Made by a program: the position numbers and the translations under genes
NCBI GenBank assembly: GCA_947627725.1
Contig: CANQXE010000001.1
Coordinates: forward strand, 62,001 to 126,000
Source of the DNA: an uncultured Clostridia bacterium
GTDB lineage: Bacteria; Bacillota; Clostridia; Oscillospirales; Acutalibacteraceae
Length of the DNA: 64,000 nucleotides
Direction: 5' to 3'
Shown: piece by piece, positions 7,182 to 47,969 of the stretch
Numbering within the stretch: position 1 is the stretch's first letter
How the letters are laid out: the number at the start of each line of letters is the position of its first letter
The notes under the pieces: model-generated
What the model saw: the letters and a program-made list of their open reading frames with translations, nothing else
What the model was told of the DNA's origin: nothing
Databases searched by the model: none

Positions 7182-7257
7182 TTATATGTTAATATATATC
7201 TACTCATATAGAAATACAGTTTAATAAATGAAATAATTTTTGGGAGGAATAAATTTA

Positions 7258-7755: not shown

Positions 7756-7785
7756 CTTACTAATATAATTGAAAGGAGAAGCGAA

Positions 7786-8166: not shown

Positions 8167-8169
8167 AGT

Positions 8170-9990
8170 ATGATACGTTCACATGTAATGATTTGTGGAG
8201 GTACAGGCTGTACTTCCTCAGGCAGTTTAAAGATTCAGCAGGAATTTGCGAGACTTATAAAATCATATGGTTTGCAGGATGAGGTCCAGATTGTTAAAAC
8301 AGGATGCTTTGGTCTGTGCGCTCTCGGTCCTGTTGTAATTGTTTATCCCGAAGGTACATTTTACAGCCAGGTAAAACCAGAGGATGTTGAGGAAATCGTT
8401 GAGTCTCACCTTTTAAAAGGACATATTGTTGAAAGACTTGTTTATAACGATACAGGAAATGTTAAGCCTAAAAATCCAAAGTACGTAACTTTAAAAGAAA
8501 CAGCGTTCTATCGTTCTCAGGACCGTATTGTTCTCAGAAACTGCGGTGTTATAGACCCTGAAAACATAAATGAGTACATAGCAAGAGACGGTTATCAGGC
8601 GCTTCATAAGGCTCTTAAAACAATGTCACCTGACGATGTTATCAAATGCGTATCCGACTCAGGTCTCAGAGGACGCGGAGGCGGCGGATTCCCGACAGGC
8701 TTTAAGTGGGCGTTATGCGCGCCAAACAAGGCTCCGCAAAAATACGTTGTATGTAATGCCGACGAGGGCGACCCCGGCGCATTTATGGACCGTTCGGTTC
8801 TTGAAGGCGACCCGCACTGCGTTATTGAGGCAATGGCTATTGCGGGCTATGCTATCGGCGCTACAAAGGGCTTTGTATATGTACGTGCTGAATATCCCAT
8901 CGCCGTTCACCGCCTGCAGGTTGCTATTGATCAGGCAAGAGAGCAGGGTCTGCTCGGTAAGAACATATTTGATTCAGGCTTTGATTTTGATATTGAAATA
9001 AGACTTGGCGCAGGCGCATTTGTATGCGGTGAGGAAACTGCTCTTATGACCTCGATTGAGGGCAACAGAGGCGAGCCCCGTCCGCGTCCGCCGTACCCTG
9101 CTGTCAAGGGTTTATATAATTCACCGACAGTAGAAAACAATGTTGAAACCTTTGCAAATATTCCTCAGATTATTCTTAAGGGCGCAGAATGGTTCTCTTC
9201 AATCGGTACAGAAAAATCAAAGGGTACAAAGGTATTCGCGCTCGGCGGTAAGATTAAGCATACGGGACTTGTTGAGGTTCCTATGGGAACTACGCTCCGC
9301 CAAATCATTGAGGATATCGGCGGCGGTATACCAAACGGCAAAAAGTTTAAGGCGGCACAGACAGGCGGACCTTCGGGCGGATGTATTCCCGCTTCGCTTA
9401 TTGATACCGAGATTGATTATGACAACCTTACGGCAATCGGCTGTATGATGGGCTCCGGCGGTCTTATCGTTATGGATGAGGATACCTGTATGGTTGATAT
9501 CGCCAAGTTCTTCCTTGAATTTACAGTTGACGAATCCTGCGGAAAATGTACTCCGTGCCGTGTAGGAACAAAAAGACTCCTTGAAATGCTTGAAAAGATT
9601 ACATCGGGCAAGGGCACAATGGAGGATATTGACAAACTTGAAGAGCTCTGCTATTACATTAAGGCTAACTCACAGTGCGGTCTCGGACAGACGGCTCCGA
9701 ACCCTGTTCTCGCAACTCTTAAATTTTATCGTGATGAATATATTTCTCACGTTAAGGATAAGAAGTGTCCGGCAGGAGTATGCAAGGATCTCCTTACATA
9801 TGTGATTGATAAGGATAAATGCATCGGCTGCGGTATGTGCGCTAGAAACTGTCCTGCCGAAACTATTCTTAAAACAGATTATACCGCACCGGGACACAAG
9901 CTCCCGTCATACGAAATCATTCCTGATAAATGCGTTAAATGCGGCGCTTGTATTTCAAACTGCCGATTGAAAGCAATCAGCAAGCAATAA
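8170..9990 (+). CDS. hydB: NuoF-like NADH-binding flavoprotein subunit of bifurcating [FeFe]-hydrogenase
   Basis: The flavin subunit that takes hydride from NADH and splits electrons between cluster chains. Domains in order are an N-terminal [2Fe-2S] thioredoxin-like domain (CGGTGCTSSGS and KTGCFGLCALGP, about residues 9-55), the NuoF core with the NADH/FMN glycine loop GRGGGGFPTGFKWA near residue 168, and a [4Fe-4S] site SCGKCTPCRVG near 457 with a later Cys. A C-terminal 2x[4Fe-4S] ferredoxin domain (CIGCGMCARNC and CVKCGACISNC) completes it. Length 606 is full for the fused HydB type. It lies in one operon with hydC and hydA. Confidence 0.93.
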   Translation: MIRSHVMICGGTGCTSSGSLKIQQEFARLIKSYGLQDEVQIVKTGCFGLCALGPVVIVYPEGTFYSQVKPEDVEEIVESHLLKGHIVERLVYNDTGNVKPKNPKYVTLKETAFYRSQDRIVLRNCGVIDPENINEYIARDGYQALHKALKTMSPDDVIKCVSDSGLRGRGGGGFPTGFKWALCAPNKAPQKYVVCNADEGDPGAFMDRSVLEGDPHCVIEAMAIAGYAIGATKGFVYVRAEYPIAVHRLQVAIDQAREQGLLGKNIFDSGFDFDIEIRLGAGAFVCGEETALMTSIEGNRGEPRPRPPYPAVKGLYNSPTVENNVETFANIPQIILKGAEWFSSIGTEKSKGTKVFALGGKIKHTGLVEVPMGTTLRQIIEDIGGGIPNGKKFKAAQTGGPSGGCIPASLIDTEIDYDNLTAIGCMMGSGGLIVMDEDTCMVDIAKFFLEFTVDESCGKCTPCRVGTKRLLEMLEKITSGKGTMEDIDKLEELCYYIKANSQCGLGQTAPNPVLATLKFYRDEYISHVKDKKCPAGVCKDLLTYVIDKDKCIGCGMCARNCPAETILKTDYTAPGHKLPSYEIIPDKCVKCGACISNCRLKAISKQ

Positions 9991-10007
9991 ATAAGGAGGG
10001 CCTAAAA

Positions 10008-11756
10008 ATGGAAATGGTAAATTTAAAAATTAACGGCATTGCCGTAAGCGCACCTAAGGGCTCAACTATTTTAGATGCTGCCCGTCAAACAGGTATTGAA
10101 ATTCCCACACTCTGCTATATGAAAGATATAAATGAAATCGGCGCCTGCCGTATTTGTATAGTCGAGGCTAACGAGGGAAGAGGATTTAAAATTGTCACCT
10201 CCTGCGTATACCCTGTATCAGAGGGTATGGAGGTTCTTACAAATACAGAAAAAATACAGAAATACAGGAAAACAACACTTGAGCTTATTTTATCGGTTCA
10301 TGATAAAAACTGTCTTTCCTGCATACGTTCAACTAACTGCGAGCTTCAGAAGCTCTGCCGTGACTACGGTGTTGACAGTTCAGGCTTTGAGGGCGAGAAA
10401 CCGCATTACGAAAAGGATACAAGCACCGCTCATCTTGTAAGAGATAATAACAAATGTATTCTTTGCAGAAGATGCGTTGCTGCCTGCAAACAGCAGTATG
10501 TCAGCGTAATCGGGGCTAACGACCGCGGTATGGATACTTCAATCGGTCAGCCGTTTGACTTGCCGCTTAATAATACTCCTTGTATTTCCTGCGGTCAGTG
10601 TACGGCTGTATGTCCTACAGGAGCGCTTACCGAAAGGGACGATACAGACAAGGTTTGGGATGCTCTTGCAGACCCTAAAAAGCACGTTGTTGTTCAGACT
10701 GCACCTTCAATCCGTGCAACAATCGGTGAATGCTTCGGTATGCCGATAGGCACAAATGTTGAGGGTAAAATGGTAGCCGCGCTTCGCAGGCTCGGCTTTG
10801 AAAAGGTATTTGATACCGACTTCGGCGCTGACCTTACCATTGTTGAGGAGGCAAACGAGCTTGTAGAGCGTATTAAAAACGGAGGTACTCTCCCGATGAT
10901 TACCTCCTGCTCACCGGGCTGGGTTAAATTCTGTGAATTTTACTATCCTGATTTACTCCCGCATTTATCAACCTGCAAATCACCGCAGCAGATGGCAGGT
11001 GCGGTAATCAAAACATATTACGCTCAGAAGATGGGCATTGACCCTGAGGATATTGTATGCGTATCTGTTATGCCTTGTACCGCAAAGAAATTTGAAATCG
11101 GAAGAGAGAACCAGTCAGCCGCAGGTGTTCCCGACGTTGATATCGCGTTGACAACGAGAGAAGTCAGCAGAATGTTCAACAGGCTCGGAATTAATTTTGC
11201 AGCCCTTCCCGATGAAGAATTTGACAGTCCTCTCGGCGACGATACAGGAGCTGCCGTCATCTTCGGCGCAACAGGCGGCGTTATGGAGGCAGCGGTAAGA
11301 ACTGCCAACGCATGGCTTAACGGCTCAACCGAGCCGATAGAACTTAAGGCTGTACGAGGTACACAGGGCTTAAAGGAAACGACCGTAAATCTTAACGGAA
11401 CAGAGCTTAAGCTTGCCGTAGCATCGGGAGCCGCTGCCGCAAAGGTTGTTATGGACAGCCTCAAGGCAGGCAACCCTAACGGCTGGGGCTTTATAGAAAT
11501 TATGGGATGCCCGGGCGGATGTGTAAACGGCGGCGGTCAGCCGATTCAGCCGCAGTATGTACGTGATACTGTTGACCTTAAGACTGTAAGGGCAAAGGCA
11601 CTTTACGACCAGGATAAGTCAATGACACTTCGTATGTCACACGAATCCCCTGTCATTAAGAAGCTCTATGAGGAATGGTATGACGGATTCGGAGGTCATA
11701 AGGCTCACCACGATTTGCATACCTCATATACTCCGAGAAAGAAATATAAAATATAG
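10008..11756 (+). CDS. hydA: [FeFe]-hydrogenase catalytic subunit, multi-cluster type
   Basis: Makes or oxidises H2 at the H-cluster. The start is ATG 10008 after AAGGAGGG; the longer open frame overlaps hydB and lacks a ribosome site. Domains are an N-terminal plant-type [2Fe-2S] domain (CYMKDINEIGACRIC), a His/Cys-ligated [4Fe-4S] site (HDKNCLSCIRSTNCELQKLC) and two [4Fe-4S] clusters (CILCRRCVAAC and CISCGQCTAVC). The H-domain follows, with L1 TSCSPGW, L2 MPCTAKKFE and L3 MGCPGGCVNGGGQP. L1 differs from the usual TSCCPGW by a Cys-to-Ser change. Length (582) and partners fit an electron-bifurcating HydABC enzyme. Confidence 0.95.
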   Translation: MEMVNLKINGIAVSAPKGSTILDAARQTGIEIPTLCYMKDINEIGACRICIVEANEGRGFKIVTSCVYPVSEGMEVLTNTEKIQKYRKTTLELILSVHDKNCLSCIRSTNCELQKLCRDYGVDSSGFEGEKPHYEKDTSTAHLVRDNNKCILCRRCVAACKQQYVSVIGANDRGMDTSIGQPFDLPLNNTPCISCGQCTAVCPTGALTERDDTDKVWDALADPKKHVVVQTAPSIRATIGECFGMPIGTNVEGKMVAALRRLGFEKVFDTDFGADLTIVEEANELVERIKNGGTLPMITSCSPGWVKFCEFYYPDLLPHLSTCKSPQQMAGAVIKTYYAQKMGIDPEDIVCVSVMPCTAKKFEIGRENQSAAGVPDVDIALTTREVSRMFNRLGINFAALPDEEFDSPLGDDTGAAVIFGATGGVMEAAVRTANAWLNGSTEPIELKAVRGTQGLKETTVNLNGTELKLAVASGAAAAKVVMDSLKAGNPNGWGFIEIMGCPGGCVNGGGQPIQPQYVRDTVDLKTVRAKALYDQDKSMTLRMSHESPVIKKLYEEWYDGFGGHKAHHDLHTSYTPRKKYKI

Positions 11757-11774
11757 AATAATTTGAAATTAAAA

Positions 11775-11880
11775 TGCTTTCTGACGCAAAGCAGGCGGAT
11801 TAACCGCCCTCTGACCGAAAGAGTGCAAATAGTTTTAAAGCTAAAACTGCACCTTTCAAAGGTGCAGTTTTTTTACTTTA
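11775..11880 (+). ncRNA. Switch-like leader RNA before the hydrogenase maturation genes
   Basis: Three small hairpins follow one another: TGCTTT/AAAGCA (11775-11793), GGCGG/CCGCC (11794-11808) and CTCT/AGAG (11809-11823). Then two mutually exclusive helices share the strand 11843-11852. One is a terminator with GGTGCAGTTTT (11861-11871). The other is an antiterminator in which GTGCA (11823-11827) and GTTTT (11832-11836) pair with AAAAC-TGCAC. The first two hairpins plus the third would be the sensing part. It does not match a riboswitch class I can name. It may equally be a plain terminator of hydA with accidental pairings. Confidence 0.5.
11843..11874 (+). terminator. Intrinsic terminator between hydA and the maturation operon
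   Basis: An 11-bp perfect stem AAAACTGCACC/GGTGCAGTTTT with a seven-base loop is followed by T-run TTTTTTT. It ends only 22 bases before the start of the next gene, so it can also act as an attenuator of that operon. Confidence 0.85.
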
Positions 11881-11896
11881 TAATTGAGGTGATTTT

Positions 11897-12142
11897 ATGG
11901 AAACTCGTGTAGCGGTAATAGGCATAATAATTGAAAACAGGGAAAGCGTTGCCGCTTTAAACGAAATACTTTCAGAATACGCAGATTATATAATAGGCAG
12001 AATGGGCGTTCCATATCATAAAAGGGACATTAATATTATTTCAGTCGCTATTGACGCGCCGCAAAATGATATTAATGCCTTAAGCGGAAAAATAGGAAGG
12101 CTTGATGGTGTTTATGCAAAAGCAGCATACAGCAATGTGTAA
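11897..12142 (+). CDS. TM1266-family putative regulator of the iron-only hydrogenase system
   Basis: An 81-residue ACT/ferredoxin-fold protein. Family hallmarks are METRVAVIGIIIENR, then NEILSEYADYIIGRMGVPYHKRDINIISVAIDAP and a glycine-bearing C-terminus. Members are found almost always with hydEGF; the proposed role is regulatory, by small-ligand binding, and is not proven. GAGGTGATTTT precedes the ATG. The 3' end overlaps the start of hydE by 38 bases in another frame, which implies translational coupling. Confidence 0.85.
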   Translation: METRVAVIGIIIENRESVAALNEILSEYADYIIGRMGVPYHKRDINIISVAIDAPQNDINALSGKIGRLDGVYAKAAYSNV

Positions 12143-13178
12143 TTCATTAATTGACAGGCTTCGCAAAGAAACCGCTCTCTCATTTGACGAGTATCTGTTC
12201 TTAATTAAAAACAGAGATAAATGCGCCGACTATCTTTATAAAAATGCCTCTCAGGTGCGTGAAAGTATTTACGGAAACAAAATTTATATCAGAGGTCTGA
12301 TTGAATTTACGAATTACTGCAAAAACAACTGCTTTTACTGCGGAATACGCAGGGATAATAAAAAAGCCGACAGGTACAGGCTGTCGTCAGATGAAATATT
12401 AAGCTGTGCCGATTACGGCTACCATCTCGGCTTTCGCACCTTTGTATTGCAAGGCGGTGAAGACGCATACTATACAGATGAGATGCTTTGCGATATTGTA
12501 CAGCAACTAAAAGAAAAGCATTCCGACTGTGCCGTGACGCTTTCGCTCGGCGAACGAAGCTTTGAAAGCTATAAAGCGCTTAGAAACGCGGGAGCGGACA
12601 GATACCTGCTTCGCCACGAAACTGCCGACCCTGAGCATTACGGCAAACTGCATCCACCCGAAATGAGCCACAAGAACAGGCTCGAATGTCTTGAAAATCT
12701 AAAAAAGCTCGGCTATCAGGTCGGTGCGGGCTTTATGGTCGGCTCACCGTTTCAGACTGAGGAAAATCTTGCTCGGGAAATGTTATTTTTAAAAAAACTT
12801 AATCCTCATATGGTAGGCATAGGACCGTTCATTTCCCATAAGGACACCCCTTTTTGCAATCAGACCTCAGGCACGGCGGAGCTTACACTCTTTATGCTCG
12901 GGCTTGTACGGCTGACACTTCCGTATGCTCTTTTGCCTGCCACAACCGCTTTGGGAACTATTGATGATTCAGGCAGGGAAAAAGGGATTTTGGCAGGCGC
13001 AAATGTTCTTATGCCTAACCTTTCACCTGTTAACGTCAGAAAAAAGTATATGCTTTACGACAATAAAATCTGCACCGGCGACGAGGCGGCGCAGTGTATC
13101 GAATGTTTAAAAAGAAGAATAAGCGCCACAGGCTGTGAAATTGAAATCAGCCGAGGTGACTATAAAGGAGAAAAATGA
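12105..13178 (+). CDS. hydE: [FeFe]-hydrogenase H-cluster maturase HydE (radical SAM)
   Basis: A radical SAM enzyme that helps build the organometallic/dithiolate part of the H-cluster. The cluster motif CKNNCFYCGI (CX3CX2C) lies near residue 66, followed by FRTFVLQGGEDAYY, the HydE/BioB-type SAM-binding region, and later GAGFMVGSPFQTEENL. Length is about 357. The start could be ATG 12105 (AGGAAGG just upstream), 12114 or 12132; I give the first. It overlaps the TM1266-like gene and shares an ATGA-type junction with hydG. Confidence 0.9.
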   Translation: MVFMQKQHTAMCNSLIDRLRKETALSFDEYLFLIKNRDKCADYLYKNASQVRESIYGNKIYIRGLIEFTNYCKNNCFYCGIRRDNKKADRYRLSSDEILSCADYGYHLGFRTFVLQGGEDAYYTDEMLCDIVQQLKEKHSDCAVTLSLGERSFESYKALRNAGADRYLLRHETADPEHYGKLHPPEMSHKNRLECLENLKKLGYQVGAGFMVGSPFQTEENLAREMLFLKKLNPHMVGIGPFISHKDTPFCNQTSGTAELTLFMLGLVRLTLPYALLPATTALGTIDDSGREKGILAGANVLMPNLSPVNVRKKYMLYDNKICTGDEAAQCIECLKRRISATGCEIEISRGDYKGEK

Positions 13179-14599
13179 TGGCTGAATATAATCCGAAATC
13201 ACTTGTTGCGGAGGAATTCATCAATGATGAAGAAATCAAAGCAACTCTAAAATACGCAGATAAAAATAAGGACAATATTGCACTTATTGATGAAATAATC
13301 GCGAAAGCAAAGCTTCGCAAAGGGCTTAATCACAGGGAGGCAAGTGTTCTCCTTGCCTGTGAAAACAAGGATAAAATCAACGAAATATACGATTTGGCTG
13401 AGCAGATAAAAAAGGATTTTTACGGCAACAGAATAGTTATGTTTGCTCCGCTCTACCTTTCAAACTACTGCGTTAACGGCTGTCTGTACTGCCCGTACCA
13501 TCTGAAAAACAAGCACATCGCGCGTAAAAAGCTTACTCAGGAGGAGGTAGCCAAAGAGGTTATCGCTCTTCAGGATATGGGACATAAGCGCCTTGCAATC
13601 GAGGCAGGAGAAGATCCTGTAAATAACCCTATTGAATATATACTGGAGTGCATAAAAACTATTTATTCAATAAAGCACAAAAACGGAGCTATAAGAAGAG
13701 TTAATGTCAATATTGCCGCTACAACTGTTGAAAATTATAAAAAGCTTAAAGACGCGGGCATCGGCACATACATTCTGTTTCAGGAAACATATCACAAGGA
13801 AAGCTACGAATATCTGCACCCGACAGGTCCTAAGCACAATTACGCTTATCATACAGAGGCGATGGACAGGGCTATGGAAGGCGGTATTGACGATGTCGGT
13901 ATCGGCGTGCTTTTCGGACTTGACAAATACCGTTATGAGTTTGCGGGGCTTTTGATGCATGCGGAGCATCTTGAAGCTGTTCACGGCGTAGGTCCGCACA
14001 CTATCAGCGTCCCCCGTGTTAAAAGGGCGGACGATATTGACCCCTCGGATTTTGACAACTCCCTCAGCGATGAAATATTCTGCAAAATTGCGGCGTGCAT
14101 AAGAATAGCCGTTCCGTACACGGGTATGATTATATCCACCCGTGAAACACCGCAGGTGCGCGAAGAGATTATACGTCTCGGCGTAAGTCAGATAAGCGGC
14201 GGCTCACGTACATCCGTCGGCGGATACTGCGAGGAGGAAAGACCCCACGATACGGAACAATTTGATGTTTCCGACAACAGAACACTTGACGAGGTTGTAA
14301 ACTGGCTTATGAGAGCAGGATATATTCCTTCATTCTGCACGGCGTGCTACAGAGAGGGAAGAACGGGCGACAGGTTTATGAGCCTATGCAAATCAGGTCA
14401 GATTCAGAACTGCTGCCACCCTAACGCGCTTATGACGCTCAAGGAATTCCTTATGGATTACGCAAGCGAGGATACACGCAAAATAGGCGAAGCTCTTATT
14501 GAAAAGGAAATTGACAATATCGGTAAGGATAAAGTTAAGGACATTGTCAGGGAAAGACTTATTAAAATAGAAAACGGCGAAAGAGATTTTCGCTTTTAA
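13175..14599 (+). CDS. hydG: [FeFe]-hydrogenase maturase HydG (tyrosine lyase, radical SAM)
   Basis: Cleaves tyrosine to give the CO and CN- ligands of the H-cluster. The radical SAM motif CVNGCLYCPY is near residue 96. The C-terminal auxiliary cluster region FCTACYREGRTGDRFMSL followed by CKSGQIQNCCHPNA is intact, which distinguishes HydG from ThiH. Length 474 is standard. AAAGGAG precedes the tandem ATGATG, so the start is 13175 or 13178; both overlap or abut the hydE stop. Confidence 0.95.
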   Translation: MMAEYNPKSLVAEEFINDEEIKATLKYADKNKDNIALIDEIIAKAKLRKGLNHREASVLLACENKDKINEIYDLAEQIKKDFYGNRIVMFAPLYLSNYCVNGCLYCPYHLKNKHIARKKLTQEEVAKEVIALQDMGHKRLAIEAGEDPVNNPIEYILECIKTIYSIKHKNGAIRRVNVNIAATTVENYKKLKDAGIGTYILFQETYHKESYEYLHPTGPKHNYAYHTEAMDRAMEGGIDDVGIGVLFGLDKYRYEFAGLLMHAEHLEAVHGVGPHTISVPRVKRADDIDPSDFDNSLSDEIFCKIAACIRIAVPYTGMIISTRETPQVREEIIRLGVSQISGGSRTSVGGYCEEERPHDTEQFDVSDNRTLDEVVNWLMRAGYIPSFCTACYREGRTGDRFMSLCKSGQIQNCCHPNALMTLKEFLMDYASEDTRKIGEALIEKEIDNIGKDKVKDIVRERLIKIENGERDFRF

Positions 14600-14617
14600 C
14601 TTTAAAGAGGTGAATTT

Positions 14618-15811
14618 ATGGGATTAAACGATACCCCCTCGGCTGAAAGACTGCATATAGGCTTTTTCGGATGCAGAAACGCGGGAAAAAGCAGTCTTGT
14701 AAACGCTGTTACGGGGCAGGATTTATCAGTTGTCAGCGATGTTAAGGGAACAACTACGGACCCTGTTAAAAAGACTATGGAGCTTTTACCTCTCGGACCT
14801 GTTCTGATTATTGATACACCGGGCTATGATGACGAGGGCGCTTTAGGTAAAAAAAGAGTTGATTCCACAAAAAAAGTTTTGCGAAGCTGCGATATAGCTG
14901 TTCTTGTGTCCGAAGCTGACCGAGAACTGAACAAAACAGAACGTGAGCTTATCTCACTTTTTGAGGAAAGAAATATACCATTTTTGATTGTAAAAAATAA
15001 GGTTGACATTTCGGTTTCCCCCGCCGTCAATGAAAAGAATACGATATACACAAGCGCTTTGAATAAAACGGGCATAGAGGAACTGAAAAACGCTATCGGC
15101 GCAAGCGTTAAGGATAAATCAAAAGCCGTAAATTATGTGGGAGATTTAATCAGCCCGAACGACATTGTTGTACTTGTAACGCCGATTGACTCGGCAGCGC
15201 CGAAGGGCAGAATGATTCTTCCTCAGCAGCAGGCAATTCGTGATATACTTGATTTCGGTGCCGTATCGGTAGTTACAAAGGAAACAGAGCTTAAATATAC
15301 GCTCAAGTCGCTTTCCAAATCCCCTGCCCTTGTTATTACGGATTCGCAGGCGTTCAAGCAGGTCGGCAAAATCGTACCTGATGAAATTCCGTTGACATCA
15401 TTTTCAATTTTAATGGCACGGTACAAAGGATTTCTCAACACGGCTGTACAGGGCGTCAAAACGCTTGACAACTTAAAGGACGGCTCACGTATTTTGATAA
15501 GCGAGGGCTGTACGCACCACCGGCAGTGTAACGATATCGGAACGGTTAAGCTGCCGAAATGGCTGAAGAATTATACCAAAGCGGATTTAAGCCTTGAATG
15601 GAGCAGCGGAACCGGATTCCCTGAAAATATTAAGGATTATGATATGGTCATCCACTGCGGCGGCTGTATGCTTAATGATAATGAAATGAAATACAGAATG
15701 GAAACAGCGCAAAAGCAGGGAGTTCCTTTTACAAATTACGGAACTGTCATTGCATATATGCAGGGTATACTCAAGCGAAGCCTTGCGCCGATTCCGGATA
15801 TAGATTTCTAA
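14618..15811 (+). CDS. hydF: [FeFe]-hydrogenase maturation GTPase HydF
   Basis: Scaffold GTPase that carries the 2Fe precursor to HydA. The GTPase motifs are G1 GCRNAGKSSLVNA (residues 18-30), G3 DTPG and G4 NKVD. The C-terminal cluster-binding site shows CTHHRQC and HCGGC. Length 397 is normal. It is the last gene of the maturation operon, 18 bases after hydG with AAAGAGGTG as ribosome site, and is followed by a perfect hairpin. Confidence 0.94.
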   Translation: MGLNDTPSAERLHIGFFGCRNAGKSSLVNAVTGQDLSVVSDVKGTTTDPVKKTMELLPLGPVLIIDTPGYDDEGALGKKRVDSTKKVLRSCDIAVLVSEADRELNKTERELISLFEERNIPFLIVKNKVDISVSPAVNEKNTIYTSALNKTGIEELKNAIGASVKDKSKAVNYVGDLISPNDIVVLVTPIDSAAPKGRMILPQQQAIRDILDFGAVSVVTKETELKYTLKSLSKSPALVITDSQAFKQVGKIVPDEIPLTSFSILMARYKGFLNTAVQGVKTLDNLKDGSRILISEGCTHHRQCNDIGTVKLPKWLKNYTKADLSLEWSSGTGFPENIKDYDMVIHCGGCMLNDNEMKYRMETAQKQGVPFTNYGTVIAYMQGILKRSLAPIPDIDF

Positions 15812-41426: not shown

Positions 41427-42647
41427 CTAATTAGCTTTAAAGTTATATATCGGTTTAATTTGCTTCAGAATATCCGCTGTAGGAGCAATACCTTCCACTA
41501 TTTCATCCTTGTTCTTGTACGCCATAGGCGATTCATCAAGGGTGTATTCGTTAATACAGGTTGTGAAAATACCCTCCATTTCGGATTGGTATTCATCTAT
41601 GGACAGCTTATCCTTTGCATCGGTTCTTGAAAGCAGTCTGCCGGCGCCGTGAGGGGCGGAGCAGTTCCAGTCCTCATTGCCTTTGCCTATACAGATTAAT
41701 GAGCCGTCGCGCATATTTATGGGAATTAAGAGCATTTCTCCCTTTTCCGCTGACACTGCACCCTTGCGGACCATGTTGTTTTTTAAATCAATGTAATTGT
41801 GGATTGTTTCAAAGTACTCAAAGTCGGAAAGAGATTTGCTGAAGGAATTTGTCAGAATCAGTTCTGCAATCAATTCACGGTTGAGCGTTGCGAATTCCTG
41901 GCAGATTGCCATATCGTCAAGATACATCTTACGGTATTCTCCGGTAAGGTAGCATAAATCCTTCGGAATTAAGGATCCCTGATATTTGAATTCCTTTTTC
42001 ATCCGGATAATAGCTGTCTGAATTTCGGTGCGTCTGCCTTGTGCTTTATATTCATCAATTAAGGTTTTCTGCTTTTCAAACAGCTTATCTGCCCCTCTTG
42101 CAATGTCATAAGCCATTGCCTGATAATGCTCTGCCACCTGTTTGCCGAGATTTCGGGAACCGGTATGTATAACAAGGTAGATACAACCGTCATCATCCTT
42201 ATCCATTTCAATAAAGTGGTTGCCGCCGCCGAGTGAACCGAGAGAACGGACAACACGCTTTGTATCTTTAAGATTGCGATAACAATTCATTTCCTGAAGC
42301 TTTGGAAATTTTGTGATTCTGCCTGCGTGAACATCGCGTCCGTAAGGAACATTCTTTCTTATGATTTCATCTAACTTATTAAAATCAACTTCAATATCGC
42401 CAAGCTTTACGCAAAGCATACCGCAGCCGATATCTACACCGACGATATTCGGAATAACCATTTCGCTGAGATTTGCGGTGAAGCCGATGGTGCAGCCATT
42501 ACCGGCGTGTACATCGGGCATAATTCTAATCTTTGCGCCTTTGGTGAATTCCTGGGAGCAGAGTAATTCAATTTGTTCAATGGCGGTGTCGTCCACCGTC
42601 TTGGCAAATACCTTCGCCGTGGCGAATGTGCCTTTTATTTCTAACAT
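41427..42647 (-). CDS. rtcB: RNA-splicing ligase RtcB
   Basis: GTP- and manganese-dependent ligase that joins 2',3'-cyclic-phosphate or 3'-phosphate RNA ends to 5'-OH ends. Motifs include PDVHAGNGCTIGFTANL, IVGVDIGCGMLCVKL (metal Cys), LGGGNHFIEMDKD, HTGSRNLGKQVAEHY and APHGAGRLLSRTDA with the guanylated histidine. Length 406 marks the shorter bacterial type. It follows the Ro-like gene by a 35-base gap filled by a perfect hairpin; GGAAAGGA is its ribosome site. Its context of RNA-binding protein, tRNA-like RNAs and WYL regulators points to RNA repair. Confidence 0.95.
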   Translation of the reverse strand: MLEIKGTFATAKVFAKTVDDTAIEQIELLCSQEFTKGAKIRIMPDVHAGNGCTIGFTANLSEMVIPNIVGVDIGCGMLCVKLGDIEVDFNKLDEIIRKNVPYGRDVHAGRITKFPKLQEMNCYRNLKDTKRVVRSLGSLGGGNHFIEMDKDDDGCIYLVIHTGSRNLGKQVAEHYQAMAYDIARGADKLFEKQKTLIDEYKAQGRRTEIQTAIIRMKKEFKYQGSLIPKDLCYLTGEYRKMYLDDMAICQEFATLNRELIAELILTNSFSKSLSDFEYFETIHNYIDLKNNMVRKGAVSAEKGEMLLIPINMRDGSLICIGKGNEDWNCSAPHGAGRLLSRTDAKDKLSIDEYQSEMEGIFTTCINEYTLDESPMAYKNKDEIVEGIAPTADILKQIKPIYNFKAN

Positions 42648-42661
42648 AACTTATCCTTTCC

Positions 42662-42688
42662 GCATAGAAAGGACAAGCCTTTCTATGC
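42662..42688 (-). other. Perfect intercistronic hairpin between the Ro-like gene and rtcB
   Basis: An 11-bp perfect inverted repeat (GCATAGAAAGG/CCTTTCTATGC) with a five-base loop spans the stop codon of the Ro-like gene and ends just before the rtcB ribosome site. There is no T-run, so it is a processing, stability or attenuation element rather than a terminator. Confidence 0.7.
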
Positions 42689-44161
42689 TGCTATTTTATC
42701 ATAACGCTGTGTGCATACTGCTTCAAGCATAAATTTATACGGGTTGAGCTCGCCGCTCATCACCATATCAAACAGCCTCGGTGTACAGCCCGATACAAGA
42801 GCAACGCCCTGCTCGTTTTTCGTTACAGGTTGCTGAGTATTTCGGCTCTGGACATTCCAGAAAACAATATTCGGGAGCATGTAGCCATTATCTTCATACA
42901 GCTTTTTTGCGTATTCAAAATTAGTTTGGTCTGCATTCTCTGTGCAATAATCAAATTCCATATCGGAAATGATATACAGAGTTTTCGGCAACTCCTCATT
43001 CGGTACATTGTTCTTTACCGCCGCATTCAGTATCAGCTCAAACACCTTCTGAAGGTCTGTATTTCCAACTTCGTTAAATGTTTCAATAAAACGTACCTTA
43101 TCAACAAATGTTTTACCCTTAATCTCAATTAGTTGAGGGTTACTTGAAAACTCTATGAAGCAGTTTGCAAATGCACCCTTGTTATTCTCGGCAAAATAGA
43201 TACCGAGTGATAGCGCAACACTGGCAGGAAGCGGATTGCCCTCCCAGTACATTGAGCCGGAAGTGTCAATTACTGCAAGAGCGTTCTCACAGTTTTCGCT
43301 TCTTTCAAGCGCGTTCCAGGTGGCATTGATTACTTCTGCCTGCTCCTTGGATATTACTCTGCGCCGCCAGCTATAATCGAGCTCGCAAAGCGGTCGTATC
43401 AGTTCATACGGAGCAAGCGTACCCGTATTCATTTTTGCTTTGCCGATGTTGACTCTTTCAAGGAATTTTCTGTAGCGCTCACCGTCATTGTTGATAAATG
43501 CCTGACGGTACTTAAAGAGCGCCTTGCTCGGTTGCTTTTCGTAGTTAAAGGTATAATCCTTTTCACGAAGATTGTTTTCAATAATGTTTATGTACTTACG
43601 AAGGGCGGAAAGTGTTTTACGGTACTCTACCTGTTCCATGCCCAGCCTCTTTGCAAGATGCTTTGCCTGCTTAACGGTTTCGGTATTGCTCGCGTTAACA
43701 GAGGGCAACCACTTGGCAAGAAGAGTAACCTCCTTGTTTTCGTTCATTGCCTTAACATCTGCCTTGAGAGTTTTTGCAATAAAACCAAGCGCTTCGTTTT
43801 CGCAGAGTGTACCAAAAAGCACCATGAGGTCGTCGTATCTGCCATACTCGGCAATATATTCTATATTCTTTTTAGCAGAGGATACCTTGTTAACGGCAAG
43901 CCATCTGAAAATGATTCTGAAAACCCGCCGTTCACCGAGACCGCCTCGAATATCTCTCGCAAAAAAGAGAATTTTCATCGCAAGATCGGGATTTTCTGTA
44001 TAAGCTCTGATAAAACGGTTTATAATATCTGCATCATTTGCGTTGCGGAGCGCACCGATTGTCGCAAACAAATCAACACAGCAGTCCAGAGAGCTTGTAA
44101 AAGAAAGAGCCCCGTTTTCGGTCCTCGTCTTATTTGCTTCGTTCTTAATTGCATTCAACAT
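42683..44161 (-). CDS. Ro60/TROVE-like vWA-domain RNA-binding protein (DUF2828 type)
   Basis: A protein of about 492 residues with an N-terminal alpha-helical repeat region (DLAMKILFFARDIRGGLGERRVFRIIFRWLA, then WLPSVNASN) like the TROVE/DUF2828 module that binds Y RNA and misfolded RNA ends. A C-terminal von Willebrand A domain carries a complete metal site DTSGSMYW and later YIISDMEFD. Start ATG 44161 follows AAGGAGGATAG. It lies directly after the tRNA-like RNA array and before rtcB, the arrangement known for Ro-Y RNA-RtcB modules. TROVE and DUF2828 are hard to tell apart by eye. Confidence 0.78.
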   Translation of the reverse strand: MLNAIKNEANKTRTENGALSFTSSLDCCVDLFATIGALRNANDADIINRFIRAYTENPDLAMKILFFARDIRGGLGERRVFRIIFRWLAVNKVSSAKKNIEYIAEYGRYDDLMVLFGTLCENEALGFIAKTLKADVKAMNENKEVTLLAKWLPSVNASNTETVKQAKHLAKRLGMEQVEYRKTLSALRKYINIIENNLREKDYTFNYEKQPSKALFKYRQAFINNDGERYRKFLERVNIGKAKMNTGTLAPYELIRPLCELDYSWRRRVISKEQAEVINATWNALERSENCENALAVIDTSGSMYWEGNPLPASVALSLGIYFAENNKGAFANCFIEFSSNPQLIEIKGKTFVDKVRFIETFNEVGNTDLQKVFELILNAAVKNNVPNEELPKTLYIISDMEFDYCTENADQTNFEYAKKLYEDNGYMLPNIVFWNVQSRNTQQPVTKNEQGVALVSGCTPRLFDMVMSGELNPYKFMLEAVCTQRYDKIAA

Positions 44162-44194
44162 ATTTCTATCCTCCTTAAAATGTTTTAAAACGAC

Positions 44195-44281
44195 AAGGCG
44201 CTCTGCGGGTCGCATATCCGCATAAATGGCTTGAAGATTAACACTCTTATCTTAGTGAACTGATGTTGCTGTAAGCGCCTT
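44195..44281 (-). ncRNA. Y-RNA-like unit A
   Basis: The 5' strand AAGGCGCT pairs with the 3' strand AGCGCCTT (8 bp). The 5' arm continues TACAGCAA, the motif shared by all units. The enclosed 70 bases are a loose tRNA-like fold with a stem TGCGG/CCGCA where a T arm would be and AAGAT/ATCTT where an anticodon stem would be. It is the unit closest to the Ro-like gene and ends 34 bases before its start codon. Confidence 0.6.
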
Positions 44282-44336
44282 TTATCTTTTACAAGATGCC
44301 TTGTTATGCCTGCCGTTGTGCCTATGCCGAAGATTC

Positions 44337-44397
44337 AAGACACTTAATTATGATAATCCGTTTTCAGGACTGTCTCATTAATTGCTGTTAGTGCCTT
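44337..44397 (-). ncRNA. Y-RNA-like unit B with a plain hairpin head
   Basis: The 5' strand AAGGCACT pairs with AGTGTCTT (one G-T pair) and is followed by the shared AACAGCAA. The head is a short hairpin (GTCC/GGAT plus AT-rich flanking pairs), not a cloverleaf. Total 61 bases. Confidence 0.55.
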
Positions 44398-44469
44398 TCA
44401 ATCAGCTTAAGGCGGGACAATAGCCTATTCTTAGTATACTGTTGTCAGCATCTATATTATTAACAGTTT

Positions 44470-44509
44470 GAACAGACAGTTAATGGACTATAACTGCCGT
44501 TGCTTGTTC
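44470..44509 (-). ncRNA. Small structured unit D
   Basis: A short element with outer stem GAACA/TGTTC, a one-sided bulge AGCAAC resembling the shared CAGCAA motif, and an 8-bp hairpin GGCAGTTA/TAACTGTC. It may be a minimal or decayed member of the array. Confidence 0.4.
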
Positions 44510-44544
44510 TTATAGCTCTTGCTGCGCTGTTCGTATTAAAACAC

Positions 44545-44642
44545 AAGGCACATTGTTTCGGGCAGGATTCGGACCTGCATCACGAGGATTTTCAATCCTC
44601 CGCTTTACCATTTAGCTACCAAATCGTTGCTGTATGTGCCTT
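44545..44642 (-). ncRNA. Y-RNA-like unit C with tRNA-Phe-like body
   Basis: A 9-bp perfect terminal stem AAGGCACAT/ATGTGCCTT carries the motif ACAGCAAC on the 5' side only. It encloses a 71-base tRNA-like body at 44555-44625. The body has acceptor-like strands GATTTGG/CCGAAAC (one mismatch, one wobble), a D arm TAGCTAAATGGTAAAGC, anticodon stem GAGGA/TCCTC with loop TTGAAAA (anticodon GAA), and T arm GCAGG-TCCGAAT-CCTGC. The 3' side runs into the terminal stem instead of CCA. It is a tRNA mimic rather than a tRNA gene. Confidence 0.75.
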
Positions 44643-44647
44643 TCTGC

Positions 44648-44757
44648 AAGGTGCCGTAAAATATCATACGGGAGTCGAACCCGACACTCCTTGCCTCTAA
44701 AGCAAGTGTTCTCCATTAGAACTAATGGTACTTTTACTGTTTTGCTGCAAGCACCTT
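44648..44757 (-). ncRNA. Y-RNA-like unit E with tRNA-like body, anticodon UAG
   Basis: A terminal stem AAGGTGC/GCACCTT with the motif TTGCAGCAA on the 5' side is followed by a GTAAAA/TTTTAC helix and a 71-base tRNA-like body at 44661-44731. The body has strands GTACCAT/ATGATAT (one mismatch), D arm TAGTTCTAATGGAGAAC, anticodon stem CTTGC/GCAAG with loop TTTAGAG (anticodon UAG), and a T arm CGGG-TTCGACT-CCCG. A UAG anticodon would mean leucine, but the long variable arm of tRNA-Leu is absent and there is no CCA. Confidence 0.75.
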
Positions 44758-44759
44758 TT

Positions 44760-45415
44760 ATGTTACTGAATAACATTGCAAATCTCTGTATCGCCCCTTC
44801 GGGCTGCCGCCAATTAATTTCCTGTATATTCTGCCAATACTCAAACAATCCTGTGCTGAAGGGCGCTACCCCGCAGCAAATTGCCCGACCGTAAGGTTAA
44901 AAGTATAGGAGATTGGTTACCCCTGATTTTCACCCGTCTTTCAGTAATTGTATTTTACATTACACTCTCAACAGTGATGCAGTATAAGGATTTACAGTCC
45001 TCATCCGCTTACAGCCTTGGGCTACTCATACCGTAAACTTCTCTTATAGTTCATTTCTGAACCTCATGGCTAAACAGCTTATGATTCTTCTGTGATGTAT
45101 AAGGCTATCACCTCTTATACAGAGCACAGATTCAGCGATGGTATTAACAACGCCTCTATTATGCTGCCGAGAAGAACCGTGCATTTACAGGCACTAACCG
45201 CAGTACCGTTGCTTAGGTGTTGCGTTTTTAACGCTTCGTTCACTATGTCACCATAGCAAAACAGTAAGAATATATAAGTATCCCAATATATTGCCTCTGA
45301 CCTTTCCGCAGCATCTCAGCAGGATGATACCCCTCTTCACTGAGTTGATACAGCGATTTGCAATGCTATTCAGTTGTGATCCGGCGATATCTCTTCGCTG
45401 TGATTACACGATACC
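44760..45415 (-). ncRNA. Upstream part of the structured RNA array, less resolved
   Basis: No reading frame of note, but many local helices. They include GCGCCCTTC/GAAGGGGCG enclosing 44792-44866, a tRNA-Tyr-like anticodon arm (AGGA-CTGTAAA-TCCT, anticodon GUA) near 44985-45002 next to a D-arm-like segment, and a nested hairpin with GCAT/ATGC and CTCAG/CTGAG at about 45307-45367. AAGCAACGG near 45205 again resembles the array motif. I cannot draw unit borders here with confidence. Confidence 0.4.
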
Positions 45416-45421
45416 ATAATC

Positions 45422-45440
45422 TTCCAGAATAATCTTGGAA
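45422..45440. promoter_or_regulatory. Inverted repeat at the head of the RNA array, candidate WYL-regulator site
   Basis: On the minus strand TTCCA and TGGAA arms flank nine bases, placed between the terminator of the WYL genes and the first array structures, where a promoter is expected. No consensus -35 is seen, which fits activator-dependent expression. The assignment to the WYL proteins is inference. Confidence 0.4.
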
Positions 45441-45454
45441 AAAAAGTTGCGAAA

Positions 45455-45480
45455 AGAAAAAGCCCCGCATTTGCAAGGCT
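45455..45480 (-). terminator. Terminator of the WYL regulator operon
   Basis: On the minus strand GCCTTGC pairs with GCGGGGC around AAAT (two G-U pairs) and is followed by TTTTTCTTTTC. It separates the regulator genes from the RNA array. Confidence 0.7.
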
Positions 45481-45732
45481 GAATCTTACTTCAATATAAT
45501 GTTTTTTCTTTTTCAGTGAGAAATTCACGATTTTAGGAACAATCTGCAAAATATACAGCTATGGCACTTTTCAAGAACATAGCATAGGTGAATTTTGAAT
45601 AGTACTTCAGCGCTATTTAAAATTCGTTGAAGCTGTGTTCGCAAGCTGCCTTTAATTCAGAAATACCGAATGGCAACTTGCCAACCAACCTTAACCTCTG
45701 TTAAAGTAATCTCTGCCATAACTGTATTGTTA
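45481..45732 (-). other. Non-coding tail behind the WYL genes
   Basis: About 250 bases without a convincing gene. A short frame from ATG 45719 reads MAEITLTEVKVGWQVAIRYF and stops; continuing frames on both sides of the stop remain open for about 45 codons, as in a decayed small gene. There is no ribosome site. Confidence 0.3.
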
Positions 45733-46680
45733 TTATAACTCTTTTTGTTTGTCTTGCAGAAAAACATTTAACTTCTCTTGCTTTTCAAGCCGTTCTTTTA
45801 TCAGACTAATAAACCTGTCCGGTGATAATACTTTTACTTTTGCGCCAAAGGAAATGATACGAATAAGGATTTCTGTTTCATCATCCCTCTCATATTTTAA
45901 ACGAACAAGGTAATGCGTATTATCAAGCTTTTCCGCCTCCTTTTCAAAGTGGGAAAAATGAAGCATAAATCGTTCAAGACAATTGCGCTCATTTACAAGC
46001 TCAACGGTTAATTCCCTCATAACGGGCTCCGGCGGTCGGTATTCCCCGCTCGGATATTGTCCAAGGAGTTTAACCGTCTTCAGTCGGGATAGGTTAATTG
46101 TTAGGAAATGATTACCGCCTCGGCTGTCAACAATACCGATTAATCGGAACTTATCGTCTTTCGAGGAGTATTCCAATTTATAAGGAATACACACGCGATA
46201 AATTTTCTGTCCCGTATGACCTGTGAATTTTACAGAGATTTTTCTGTATTCACAAAACGCCTGTAATATTAATTGAAAATTTTCAATATACCTTTCATCG
46301 TCATAATGGTCTCCGTCGCTGTAGCGGTCAAAGTATTCAATCCATTCCTGCTTATAAAGTGGTTCAACATCCTCTAAACCTTGAAGTGATGGATTGAAAA
46401 GCTTTATTCTCGGATTCTCCAGCAATGCTTTCATCCATTGCTTTTGCAGTTTGGTCAGCGGCATCGTCGGAGACGAAAGTAACGGAGTTTCCATATCTTT
46501 TGACAGCAGCTTCCACTCTTGGCTTTTCAGTGCAGACGGAATGTTCAGAACGCTCTCGCCAAATGCCTTTTTGGTAATGATATCGTTGATATCTTTTTCA
46601 TGTAAATTGCCTTCGCACGCTCTCGAAAGTATATCGGCAACAACATTGAAATAGCTTGAGTAAATCTCATTAAACAGCAT
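45733..46680 (-). CDS. WYL-domain regulator, second gene of the pair
   Basis: A protein of about 315 residues whose middle part carries a WYL-type ligand domain (KIYRVCIPYKLEYSSKDDKFRLIGIVDSRGG … INLSRLKTVKLL), a fold that senses nucleic-acid or nucleotide ligands. A C-terminal WCX-like region (LTVELVNERNCLERFMLHFSHF) follows. No classical helix-turn-helix is obvious at the N-terminus. GGAGG eight bases before ATG 46680 sets the start, overlapping the upstream gene by 11 bases, so the two are translated together. Probably controls the RNA array and repair genes. Confidence 0.75.
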   Translation of the reverse strand: MLFNEIYSSYFNVVADILSRACEGNLHEKDINDIITKKAFGESVLNIPSALKSQEWKLLSKDMETPLLSSPTMPLTKLQKQWMKALLENPRIKLFNPSLQGLEDVEPLYKQEWIEYFDRYSDGDHYDDERYIENFQLILQAFCEYRKISVKFTGHTGQKIYRVCIPYKLEYSSKDDKFRLIGIVDSRGGNHFLTINLSRLKTVKLLGQYPSGEYRPPEPVMRELTVELVNERNCLERFMLHFSHFEKEAEKLDNTHYLVRLKYERDDETEILIRIISFGAKVKVLSPDRFISLIKERLEKQEKLNVFLQDKQKEL

Positions 46681-47911
46681 TGTCATCACCTCCGTACATT
46701 TTTACCATATCGGCAAAATCGCCATAGAAGGTATCGACCACAGACTGATTGGAACATTCCAACTTAGATATTCTGCCGGTGAAGGTACGAATCCAAGGCA
46801 TCATTTCCATAGCGTCATATACATCAGCAGCAAAGCGATAATGGTGCGAATCAATTGCGTATATCCTGCCGTAACGCTTTTCACGTTCAAGACGGTTAAT
46901 AATGAACTCCTCATTTTCGTCAACAAACACCGTCATCTCAATATGATCAAGACCTCCGTGAGAACTGGAAGATACACCCCAGACATTACATTTAAACTTC
47001 TCCGCATTATCAAAATGCTTGTTAAAATCAATATCAATTGCGCATATTTTTACCTTTTTAATATTATCAAGGCGGAAAAATACCATTCGTTTGAATGAAT
47101 AATGATAACCGAGAACATAACGTCTGCCGCTTTGTGTAGAACAGTATATTTTAAGCGGTAACAAGGTATGTTCTCTGATATTGTCCTGACGGGGAATATA
47201 AATTGAAAGCTGTGTTGCCCTATGATCACGCATTGCCTCAAACAATTGCTCAAGTACTTCACTTTCAAGCGCGTGGAGGATGTAGTGATGCTTGAAGGTG
47301 AAATCATCCGGAGCACGGTCATATTTATCAAGAATAAATGAGCCGACAACACCAAGCGGGTCCTCTTCAGAGAAAAAAGCAACAGCCTCTTTCCAATTCT
47401 CTAAATCAACGCAGTCATCGTTTCTTGAATAAATCAGCTCTCTGCCTTGTTTTCTGCTTTTGATTAAGCCAAGCTTTTCATACTCCTTCAGCTTTTTTCG
47501 TACTGTAGACTCATCAAGCTCACTTGCGTTTTCAAACATAGACAGATAATCATCGGTAATGCTGTCAAGGATTTCTTTAAATGATTTTTCTTCTCCTTCG
47601 GCAAGAATGTCAAGAATATAAAAGTGTAAGTTAATGTCGTTTTCCGTAAAGCTTTTTGCCTTAAAAGCATTATATAAAGGATTGTGAGAAATGGCACGGG
47701 AATTCATCGCTAAAAATGAGTATTTTTCATTGCCGTCCTTGCGAAACTGCATATACTCACCCAGCCAGCTTTCAATGCGTCGTCGTTCGTTATCATAGCT
47801 TCTCGCGCTCTTTGCGGTATATTCATTTCTGGTCTTTAAGCCATAGATATAAAATTGACTCACATATTCTCGGATTTTAGAGAAATTTTTAATCAGTTCG
47901 CTGTATGCCAT
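46670..47911 (-). CDS. WYL-domain transcriptional regulator with helix-turn-helix, first gene of the pair
   Basis: A protein of about 413 residues. The N-terminal part includes a winged-helix-like segment (LDESTVRKKLKEYEKLGLIKSRKQGRELIYS). The C-terminal half has the WYL domain (LLPLKIYCSTQSGRRYVLGYHYSFKRMVFFRLDNIKKVKI) and a WCX-like end. Start ATG 47911 follows AGGAGG; promoter at 47941-47969. WYL regulators are commonly linked to defence and RNA-repair loci and are thought to sense damage-derived nucleotides. With its partner it flanks the tRNA-like RNA array, Ro-like gene and rtcB. Confidence 0.82.
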   Translation of the reverse strand: MAYSELIKNFSKIREYVSQFYIYGLKTRNEYTAKSARSYDNERRRIESWLGEYMQFRKDGNEKYSFLAMNSRAISHNPLYNAFKAKSFTENDINLHFYILDILAEGEEKSFKEILDSITDDYLSMFENASELDESTVRKKLKEYEKLGLIKSRKQGRELIYSRNDDCVDLENWKEAVAFFSEEDPLGVVGSFILDKYDRAPDDFTFKHHYILHALESEVLEQLFEAMRDHRATQLSIYIPRQDNIREHTLLPLKIYCSTQSGRRYVLGYHYSFKRMVFFRLDNIKKVKICAIDIDFNKHFDNAEKFKCNVWGVSSSSHGGLDHIEMTVFVDENEEFIINRLEREKRYGRIYAIDSHHYRFAADVYDAMEMMPWIRTFTGRISKLECSNQSVVDTFYGDFADMVKMYGGDDNAV

Positions 47912-47940
47912 AATCACACCTCCTCATATTTCATAATATT

Positions 47941-47969
47941 AATATACCAAATCATCTGTTTTGTTTCAA
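47941..47969 (-). promoter_or_regulatory. Promoter of the WYL pair
   Basis: On the minus strand TTGAAA, a 17-base spacer and TATATT, with the ribosome site AGGAGG following. Confidence 0.7.

Follow-up and report, generated by a model that had tools for sequence, protein, structure and literature searches.

The window analysed here, a 64,000-nucleotide stretch of contig CANQXE010000001.1 from an uncultured gut bacterium of the Clostridia, carries on its minus strand, from 47917 down to 41427, a pair of genes for WYL-type regulators and a hairpin terminator, then non-coding DNA, a gene for a DUF2828/vWA protein that is predicted to fold like Ro60, and a gene for the RNA ligase RtcB. An initial annotation of this DNA had listed the same parts, on one strand and in this order, and all of them were recovered. 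The non-coding stretch, which it had given as 1.2 kb with tRNA-like modules, proved to be about 1.5 kb long; two tRNA mimics are indeed present, and a ROOL RNA that takes up over a third of this DNA had been missed. This ROOL RNA makes up the 5' part of the stretch and a row of short, Y-RNA-like units its 3' part, and we read the whole as an operon probably devoted to the care of tRNA.

The ROOL RNA (RF03087) lies at 44765..45374 on the minus strand, the Rfam match itself spanning 44774-45368 and the closing helix, a 28-nt inverted repeat, reaching out to 44765/45374. The cmscan match covers the entire model (1-574 of 574) and scores 287.3 bits against a cut-off of 99.1, which places the RNA in the family; it was the only copy found in the genome. 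It stands between a WYL-type promoter element and the first of the short units, which begins 7 nt past the ROOL closing helix. Structures of ROOL and related large ornate RNAs have been solved, and we know of no function for any of them.

The plan of the units was derived from four window repeats and consists of 5'-AAGRYRC-N3-CAGCAA, a variable insert and GYRYCTTG-3', with the first seven bases pairing with the last seven that precede the final G. By our present count the window holds five units, four of them with an intact CAGCAA and each with a Y-RNA-like end stem, in line with the earlier estimate of at least four different RNAs. All are on the minus strand. Unit 1 (44647..44757; stem AAGGTGC/GCACCTT, CAGCAA) has a tRNA-Leu(UAG)-like insert, and unit 2 (44544..44642; stem AAGGCAC/GTGCCTT, CAGCAA) a tRNA-Phe(GAA)-like one. 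Unit 3 (44292..44453; stem AGATGC/GCATCT) is an outer unit that encloses unit 4; its 5' motif is degenerate (CAACAG), and it was recognised only by way of the nearest relative found (L224; vWA protein ~80% and RtcB 84% identical), where the same nested pair occurs with both motifs intact. The nested unit 4 (44336..44397; stem AAGGCAC/GTGTCTT, CAGCAA) has a short hairpin as its insert, as unit 5 (44194..44281; stem AAGGCGC/GCGCCTT, CAGCAA) has a hairpin. Our first unit finder, applied to an 8.5-kb piece of the window, returned 4 units, none on the opposite strand and none in three shuffles.

ARAGORN called the tRNA-Leu(UAG)-like sequence at 44659-44732 and the tRNA-Phe(GAA)-like sequence at 44554-44625, both wholly within units 1 and 2, and found no ordinary tRNA gene in the window locus besides these two mimics. 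We considered units 1 and 2 as ordinary tRNA genes and rejected this, as the tRNA-like parts lie inside the conserved 7-bp stem and CCA is absent; the Leu(UAG) mimic in addition has no long variable arm.

The DUF2828/DUF7788 vWA protein is encoded at 42683..44161 on the minus strand and matches both Pfam families (5.8e-35 and 1.7e-47, respectively) as well as PHROG 850, annotated as RNA-binding protein (2.8e-131). Its AlphaFold2 model resembles Ro60/TROVE across nearly the whole length by Foldseek and VIA-align, the predicted structure comprising a ring of HEAT repeats and a vWA domain, as in Ro60. D299, S301 and S303 of a DxSxS motif in the vWA domain, which we take to be the MIDAS motif, were invariant in 15 of 15 aligned proteins. 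The initial description of a TROVE/DUF2828-like vWA protein is thus borne out as to DUF2828 by Pfam and as to the Ro60 fold by the model, and not as to a TROVE sequence match; because no such match was found, we call the protein Ro-like rather than TROVE. The gene most likely starts at 44161 rather than at 44215, judging from the sequence, since the last RNA unit reaches 44194 and overlaps the start of the 510-aa open reading frame; the 15-protein alignment of the family also begins at the 44161 start.

RtcB is encoded at 41427..42647 on the minus strand. The translation matches Pfam RtcB (3.3e-62), as annotated at the outset, with 211.5 bits against a cut-off of 27, and PHROG 1075 (9.1e-128), and holds the motifs HGAGR, GGGNHFIE and VDIGCGM, presumably of catalytic importance. 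At the other end of the operon, WYL1 (46670..47917, minus strand) is a winged helix-turn-helix and WYL regulator gene by Pfam WYL (7.7e-06) and PADLOC WYL (3.6e-12), and WYL2 (45733..46689, minus strand) a second WYL/WCX regulator gene by PADLOC WYL (1e-11), with a weak WCX match in Pfam (0.0051) that falls under the cut-off. The overlap that had been noted between the two genes amounts to 20 nt. A terminator-like hairpin from a consensus scan lies 3' of WYL2 (45461..45480, minus strand); the same scan gave 9 such hairpins in the region against 5.9 expected, so the hairpin is weak evidence by itself. A Pfam scan of the six neighbouring proteins turned up neither rtcA nor the sigma-54 regulator gene rtcR; genes elsewhere in the genome were not searched. 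The plus-strand flanks are ordinary, with a carbon-nitrogen hydrolase and an FGGY kinase, and farther off in the window (7240-15811) are genes that, from their translations, we take to resemble those for an [FeFe]-hydrogenase, NAD-linked partner subunits and maturation proteins.

Between WYL2 and the array lies a conserved element, CGCAACTTTTTTTCC (45437..45451, minus strand), a candidate WYL-controlled promoter element, followed by a putative -10-like hexamer, TATCGT (45408..45413, minus strand), that has the same relative position in relatives' loci, including the nearest. For a wider count we assembled 95 bacterial loci, namely the window, 14 relatives from its order and 80 loci from named genomes, the last kept among at least 499 relatives found in one scan; 5 of the 95 repeat another at 95% or more vWA DNA identity, leaving 90 distinct. 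The form CGCARCTTTTTTTCC followed by a -10-like hexamer was present in 66/95 loci and in 62 of the 73 with WYL1 (63/90 and 59/69 among distinct loci), and in 0/80 viral loci. Of the 62 distinct loci with element and first unit alike, 32 show the unit starting 35-42 nt past the element, a spacing that fits transcription beginning at this unit or slightly ahead of it; in the window it is ROOL that comes after the element. The WYL proteins may bind this element. Regulators with CARF and WYL domains are discussed in connection with defence and RNA-repair systems in the available text of PMC4012209. The earlier proposal that WYL proteins here replace RtcR may hold as well, their adjacency and the conserved upstream element being what speaks for it.

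Within the genus the operon is patchily distributed. The vWA protein was found in 15/295 genomes of the order and in 4/60 of the genus, the window's own included in both counts. Cultured bacteria that carry it include Anaerotignum lactatifermentans DSM 14214 and Oscillibacter valericigenes. WYL1 and WYL2 were both present in 12 of the 14 order relatives, and RtcB in 9 within the fetched stretch; over all bacterial loci WYL1 occurred in 73/95 (69/90 distinct) and RtcB in 68/95 (65/90 distinct), with many of the loci cut by contig ends. Among phages the DUF2828 Ro-like protein was found in 682/50,697 records, which are not independent and include the cultured FADO and P100, and in the best named phages it is ~40% identical to that of the window. 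In FADO, a phage of Bacillus subtilis, the Ro-like gene is fado_144. The viral side of the comparison comprised 87 loci (80 from IMG/VR and 7 from a phage collection; 73 distinct). No WYL or RtcB homologue was detected in the 80 viral loci that were fetched, as stretches of at most ~15.5 kb.

The units were found to accompany the Ro-like gene in every bacterial locus examined. A strict finder counted 339 units on the gene strand of the bacterial loci against 20 on the other strand and 12 in shuffled sequence, with at least one unit in 95/95 loci (321, 18 and 6 units, respectively, and 90/90 loci, among those that are distinct); the shuffles rearrange two-letter blocks or single letters only, and the opposite strand is the better control. 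The corresponding numbers were 140, 7 and 7 for the 87 viral loci, with units in 63, and 123, 3 and 7 for the 73 distinct ones, with units in 54. By an earlier finder no unit was detected in KVP40 (L212) or in LeBron (L211); in LeBron two or three are visible by eye, and unit-like sequences were seen in this way directly downstream of its Ro-like gene (5407-5767). On a Subdoligranulum variabile plasmid (L296, OY725878.1), the Ro-like gene is preceded by four units on its 5' side. A further motif, AACGGCA, lies outside or between the window units (44450-44510 and 44305-44330); in the 2 kb upstream of the vWA gene it was counted 30 times in forward and 12 times in reverse orientation, the forward copies in 25/95 loci.

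The position of the units bears on whether they act in trans. A unit lies no more than 3.5 kb 5' of the vWA gene in 92/95 loci (88/90 distinct), which sets the units beside the Ro-type gene and would also be expected if they were cis-acting leaders adjusting the expression of vWA and rtcB downstream, be it as attenuators or through Ro binding in an autoregulatory loop. Against such leaders, one bacterial locus (L048) has two of its three detected units 3' of the vWA gene, viral contigs with ROOL, among them G483, G485 and G491 (each >50 kb), carry units without any vWA gene, and the inserts include tRNA mimics. We therefore regard cis-acting leaders as improbable and prefer to see the units as trans-acting RNAs.

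Given that the finder demands pairing, we used a covariation test free of this circularity, in which 5' motifs were picked by sequence alone. Of 401 such motifs, 292 were followed within 200 nt by their own 7-base reverse complement plus G, whereas stems borrowed from other motifs gave a mean of 19 and a maximum of 28 over 200 draws. In the distinct bacterial loci the figures were 275/377 against a control mean of 18 (maximum 29), and in the viral loci 77/194 against 2 (maximum 6), or 68/156 against 2 (maximum 7) for distinct loci. The same is seen on a small scale between the window and its nearest relative, where the unit 4 stem reads AAGGCAC/GTGTCTT in the one and AAGGTAC/GTACCTT in the other, with paired changes, and the T-stem of unit 2 reads GCAGG/CCTGC and GCGGG/CCCGC. 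End stem, CAGCAA and operon position are kept in Clostridia, Synergistaceae and phages, and the inserts vary. The initial annotation had tied its case to conserved structure and synteny in relatives and to a relation of the vWA protein to Ro/TROVE folds; structure and synteny are both kept, and the fold is predicted.

Three types of insert are seen. The first is a tRNA in normal order with an anticodon arm, as in window units 1 and 2; the second is a permuted tRNA, in which the chain is open at the anticodon arm and closed at the acceptor end, so that T-arm, acceptor hairpin and D-arm follow one another; and the third has short hairpins only. A T-arm was detected in 57/339 bacterial inserts against 1/339 shuffled, and the permuted arrangement in 4/339 bacterial units (1/339 shuffled) and 4/140 viral units, with examples in Bacillus phage FADO and, by eye, E. 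coli phage EC6. Hairpins resembling anticodon arms were counted in 106/323 distinct units against a mean of 8.1, by a detector that also counts T-loops. The idea that every unit may present a tRNA-like bait or substrate could hold for some inserts; only some of them look tRNA-like, no tRNA arm having been found by the detector used in 218/339, a point that returns below. In FADO (L209, 2189-4914) the units are set amid tRNA genes, upstream of the Ro-like gene. EC6 (L214) has past its Ro-like gene a gene-free 3.3 kb (6377-9642) with numerous tRNAs; four units there take the form AGACCRNNTACAGCAA...GGTCTG, one of them with a permuted tRNA by eye.

These inserts raise the question of whether the units might simply be decayed tRNA genes of a tRNA island that share a processing stem, with neither Ro binding nor mimicry. 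Two window inserts are called tRNA by both ARAGORN and Rfam, and the nearest relative has a tRNA-Lys gene with an encoded CCA ahead of unit 1. However, stem, CAGCAA and position are conserved across the three groups named above and it is the inserts that vary, and the nearest relative, with a Ro-like protein ~80% identical, keeps its stems by compensatory changes, so that decay appears very improbable indeed and the inserts are better read as mimics.

The operon could also belong to anti-phage or anti-toxin defence, combining decoys with repair against anticodon nucleases, whether these come from phages, from toxins or from neighbouring bacteria. The patchy occurrence in the genus is consistent with this, as are the phages that carry the same protein, often with units and some of them amid tRNA genes, the anticodon loops that differ between the window and the nearest relative (UAG and UAU in unit 1, GAA and AAA in unit 2), and the tRNA-Lys(UUU) gene that heads the array of that relative. 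On the other hand, PADLOC returned nothing for either RtcB or the vWA protein, and its top models for the WYL pair were WYL, Cas3c, Csa3 and CARF; in Salmonella a tRNA-cutting nuclease left the YrlA RNA uncut, according to the available text of PMC7790460. We consider a defence role rather unlikely, if well worth keeping in mind, and retain the broader reading of tRNA care.

Beyond the window, ROOL scored over the cut-off in 5 of the 80 named genomes with a vWA protein (no more than 18 candidates were scored per genome). Two of the 5 have it in the same locus as the units; these are Mogibacterium-type operons (L046 and L047) in which tRNAs, RtcB, a helix-turn-helix gene, more tRNAs, ROOL, further tRNAs, units and vWA follow in this order, with ROOL upstream of the units. 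ARAGORN found 27 and 26 tRNA-like genes there (1678-6889 and 1789-6892, respectively), one in each case inside a unit, and the island looks like a portable tRNA backup island.

To these we added 44 viral ROOL loci gathered by two DNA patterns. On the ROOL strand they contain 34 units, in 20 loci, against 0 on the opposite strand and 1 in shuffled sequence, and for 18 of these 20 loci the distance from ROOL to the nearest unit, downstream, is at most 2 kb. No units were found in 12 random viral contigs, none of which exceeds 43 kb and which are too few for a size-matched vWA rate. A vWA protein is encoded on 11/44 viral ROOL contigs, a number open to bias since the patterns were partly designed from copies in vWA-carrying contigs, and by eye on 10 of the 23 that are 50 kb or longer. 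Grouped at 95% identity the loci form 24 groups, 9 with a unit and 7 with a vWA contig. In the converse direction, ROOL was found in 4 of the 50 viral vWA contigs searched out of 80 (L115-L163 and L183), or in an unbiased 3/49, as L183 had joined the set because its ROOL was already known. ROOL is ~36-44 kb from the vWA gene in three of these four contigs. A nucleotide search of named phages with three ROOL queries gave no match, and so no named laboratory phage with both ROOL and the Ro-like gene. In one viral contig (L236, 1076-1498) ARAGORN called a tmRNA gene beside ROOL and tRNAs.

Taken together, we read the locus, with a probability of about 60%, as an inducible tRNA-care operon of the Ro/Y-RNA/RtcB type, with modular tRNA-mimic RNAs and with ROOL recruited as a scaffold. 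On this reading the WYL pair would sense RNA or DNA damage and turn on the downstream promoter, and the long transcript would be cut into units. End stem and CAGCAA would then be the handle for the Ro-like ring protein, by analogy with YrlA, in which the end stem binds Rsr and the tRNA-like domain an effector (PMC8394870, available text). The inserts, as mimics of whole tRNAs, anticodon arms or T-arms, would offer different tRNA surfaces and could be adaptors for, or decoys against, enzymes that cleave, modify or break down tRNA. RtcB, which seals ends of the type made by metal-independent RNases (PMC7824862, available text), would reseal cut tRNAs, and the Ro ribonucleoprotein would hold or sort the fragments.

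ROOL would most likely contribute to this as a multivalent scaffold or container. A different ROOL RNA has been shown to assemble as an octameric cage (PMC12286853), and a commentary states that cargo RNAs fused at the ROOL 3' end face outward on the octamer (PMC12515178), both as far as the available text goes. Because unit 1 begins 7 nt past the closing helix, a read-through RNA of ROOL and units would be such a 3' fusion, and it is this together with the outward display of fused cargo that suggests the scaffold role.

Several observations weigh against the reading of a tRNA-care operon with ROOL as its scaffold. What is known here of the operon's function comes from sequence and predicted structure, from which we infer the mechanism. 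The vWA protein has no TROVE match in Pfam at E 0.01, and its profile gave 0 matches to PDB sequences at E 1, so that kinship to TROVE at the level of sequence, for which we had looked, was set aside. Single-sequence fold z-scores, -3.04 for unit 2 and -2.18 for unit 4, were unremarkable for units 1 (-1.66) and 5 (-1.63), and most bacterial inserts are those without a detected tRNA arm. The operon of the nearest relative has no ROOL; after the element comes a tRNA-Lys(UUU) gene with an encoded CCA (118-193, oriented), which occupies the site of ROOL in the window, and then the units, so that ROOL was probably gained in the lineage of the window, or else lost in that of the relative. ROOL is likewise absent from the loci of the 14 order relatives and, within the candidates scored, was not found in 75/80 named genomes. 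The two Mogibacterium-type loci are one lineage, with ROOL 99% identical, while grouping at 80% identity leaves 17 groups of viral ROOL (5 with units, 5 with vWA); independent recurrences of ROOL with units are therefore few. Contrary to expectation, RtcB was found in 0/44 viral ROOL contigs, and so the viral ROOL goes with units and the Ro-like protein and not with the ligase. Finally, no convincing unit was seen at the ROOL of L. salivarius (pMP118) or of G093, G363, G397 and G402; among the latter, two long stand-alone matches at a great distance from ROOL were left out of the unit count.

The operon may instead be of the Ro/Y-RNA/RtcB type with ROOL as a mere passenger, brought in with phage-type tRNA islands, in which Ro-like genes and units are found too, and without a role in it. 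The available text of PMC12286853 and PMC12515178 describes ROOL as an RNA of phages and prophages, commonly near tRNA islands and with no known function, and in the 20 of our 44 viral loci that were scanned, tRNA genes were present in 20/20. Its absence from the nearest relative, the failure to find it in most operons examined, the copies that stand alone, and the shrinking of the viral recurrences to 9 of 24 groups all agree with a passenger. What argues otherwise is that no ordinary tRNA gene accompanies ROOL in the window, that its place is precisely the gap from the WYL-type promoter to unit 1, and that ROOL and units meet again in the Mogibacterium-type and viral loci on the same strand only, in the viral ones by 34 to 0. 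A passenger is possible, then, though on balance doubtful.

A fuller version of the scaffold proposal is more tentative than the tRNA-care reading itself, quite possible and still short of probable: ROOL may work together with the Ro-like proteins and gather or display the tRNA-mimic units, and perhaps damaged tRNAs, for protection by Ro and, in bacteria, repair by RtcB, and in hundreds of phages and many Clostridia each DUF2828 protein may be served by its own fast-changing array of mimics under attack by tRNA nucleases. With ROOL in a WYL-type Ro-like/RtcB operon, and with units mostly within 2 kb downstream of it in viral tRNA islands, a ROOL function can be put to the test as tRNA protection, and the RNA gains a possible role in protecting or repairing tRNA. 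The unit consensus is a likely RNA partner of the phage DUF2828 Ro-like protein, and Y-RNA-like adaptors, it would appear, can multiply into arrays with exchangeable tRNA-like heads.

An operon of Ro, Y RNA and RtcB is of a known kind. The Salmonella rsr-yrlBA-rtcBA locus (PMC7790460, available text) likewise unites RtcB with a protein of Ro60 type and with Y-type RNAs that are in part tRNA-like, whereas here the regulator genes are a WYL pair and not rtcR, no rtcA is found in the adjacent open reading frames, the Ro-like protein is a divergent DUF2828 member, and five units and a ROOL RNA are present. YrlA (RF02553; PMC8394870, available text) resembles the units in its large stem of 5' and 3' ends, in the Ro-type gene nearby and, for some of the units, perhaps in its tRNA-like domain, and differs from them in that they have the conserved ends AAGRYRC-N3-CAGCAA...GYRYCTTG and inserts among which are tRNAs of canonical order that have an anticodon arm, tRNAs in permuted form and small hairpins. 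The 69-bit cut-off of RF02553 was reached by 0/23 records, which counts against a simple equation of the two and also against the tRNA-care reading; the best score was 39.8 bits, for a unit of mycobacteriophage LeBron that lies beside its Ro-like gene, and weak matches, seen also in 7/14 control genomes, have little meaning. We accordingly dropped the assignment to YrlA and call the units Y-RNA-like.

In the literature search nothing among the matches listed joined ROOL with RtcB or Ro60, key papers lying outside its coverage, and for DUF2828 the matches listed were four plant papers. The unit consensus common to bacterial and phage DUF2828 loci is apparently new, although part of it, or the WYL-Ro-RtcB context, may have been described earlier, and the same applies to the anticodon-arm tRNA mimics within units, the WYL-linked element and the link between ROOL and units. 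The window ROOL agrees with the described family in its full-length match and closing helix, and departs from it in its setting, a chromosomal operon for RNA repair in which a WYL-type promoter element precedes it and tRNA-mimic units follow. The phage Ro-like RNA-binding protein (DUF2828, PHROG 850) is of the same family as the protein studied here and several such phages carry the same units, while the bacterial loci, in contrast to those of phages, often place it in an operon with RtcB and WYL.

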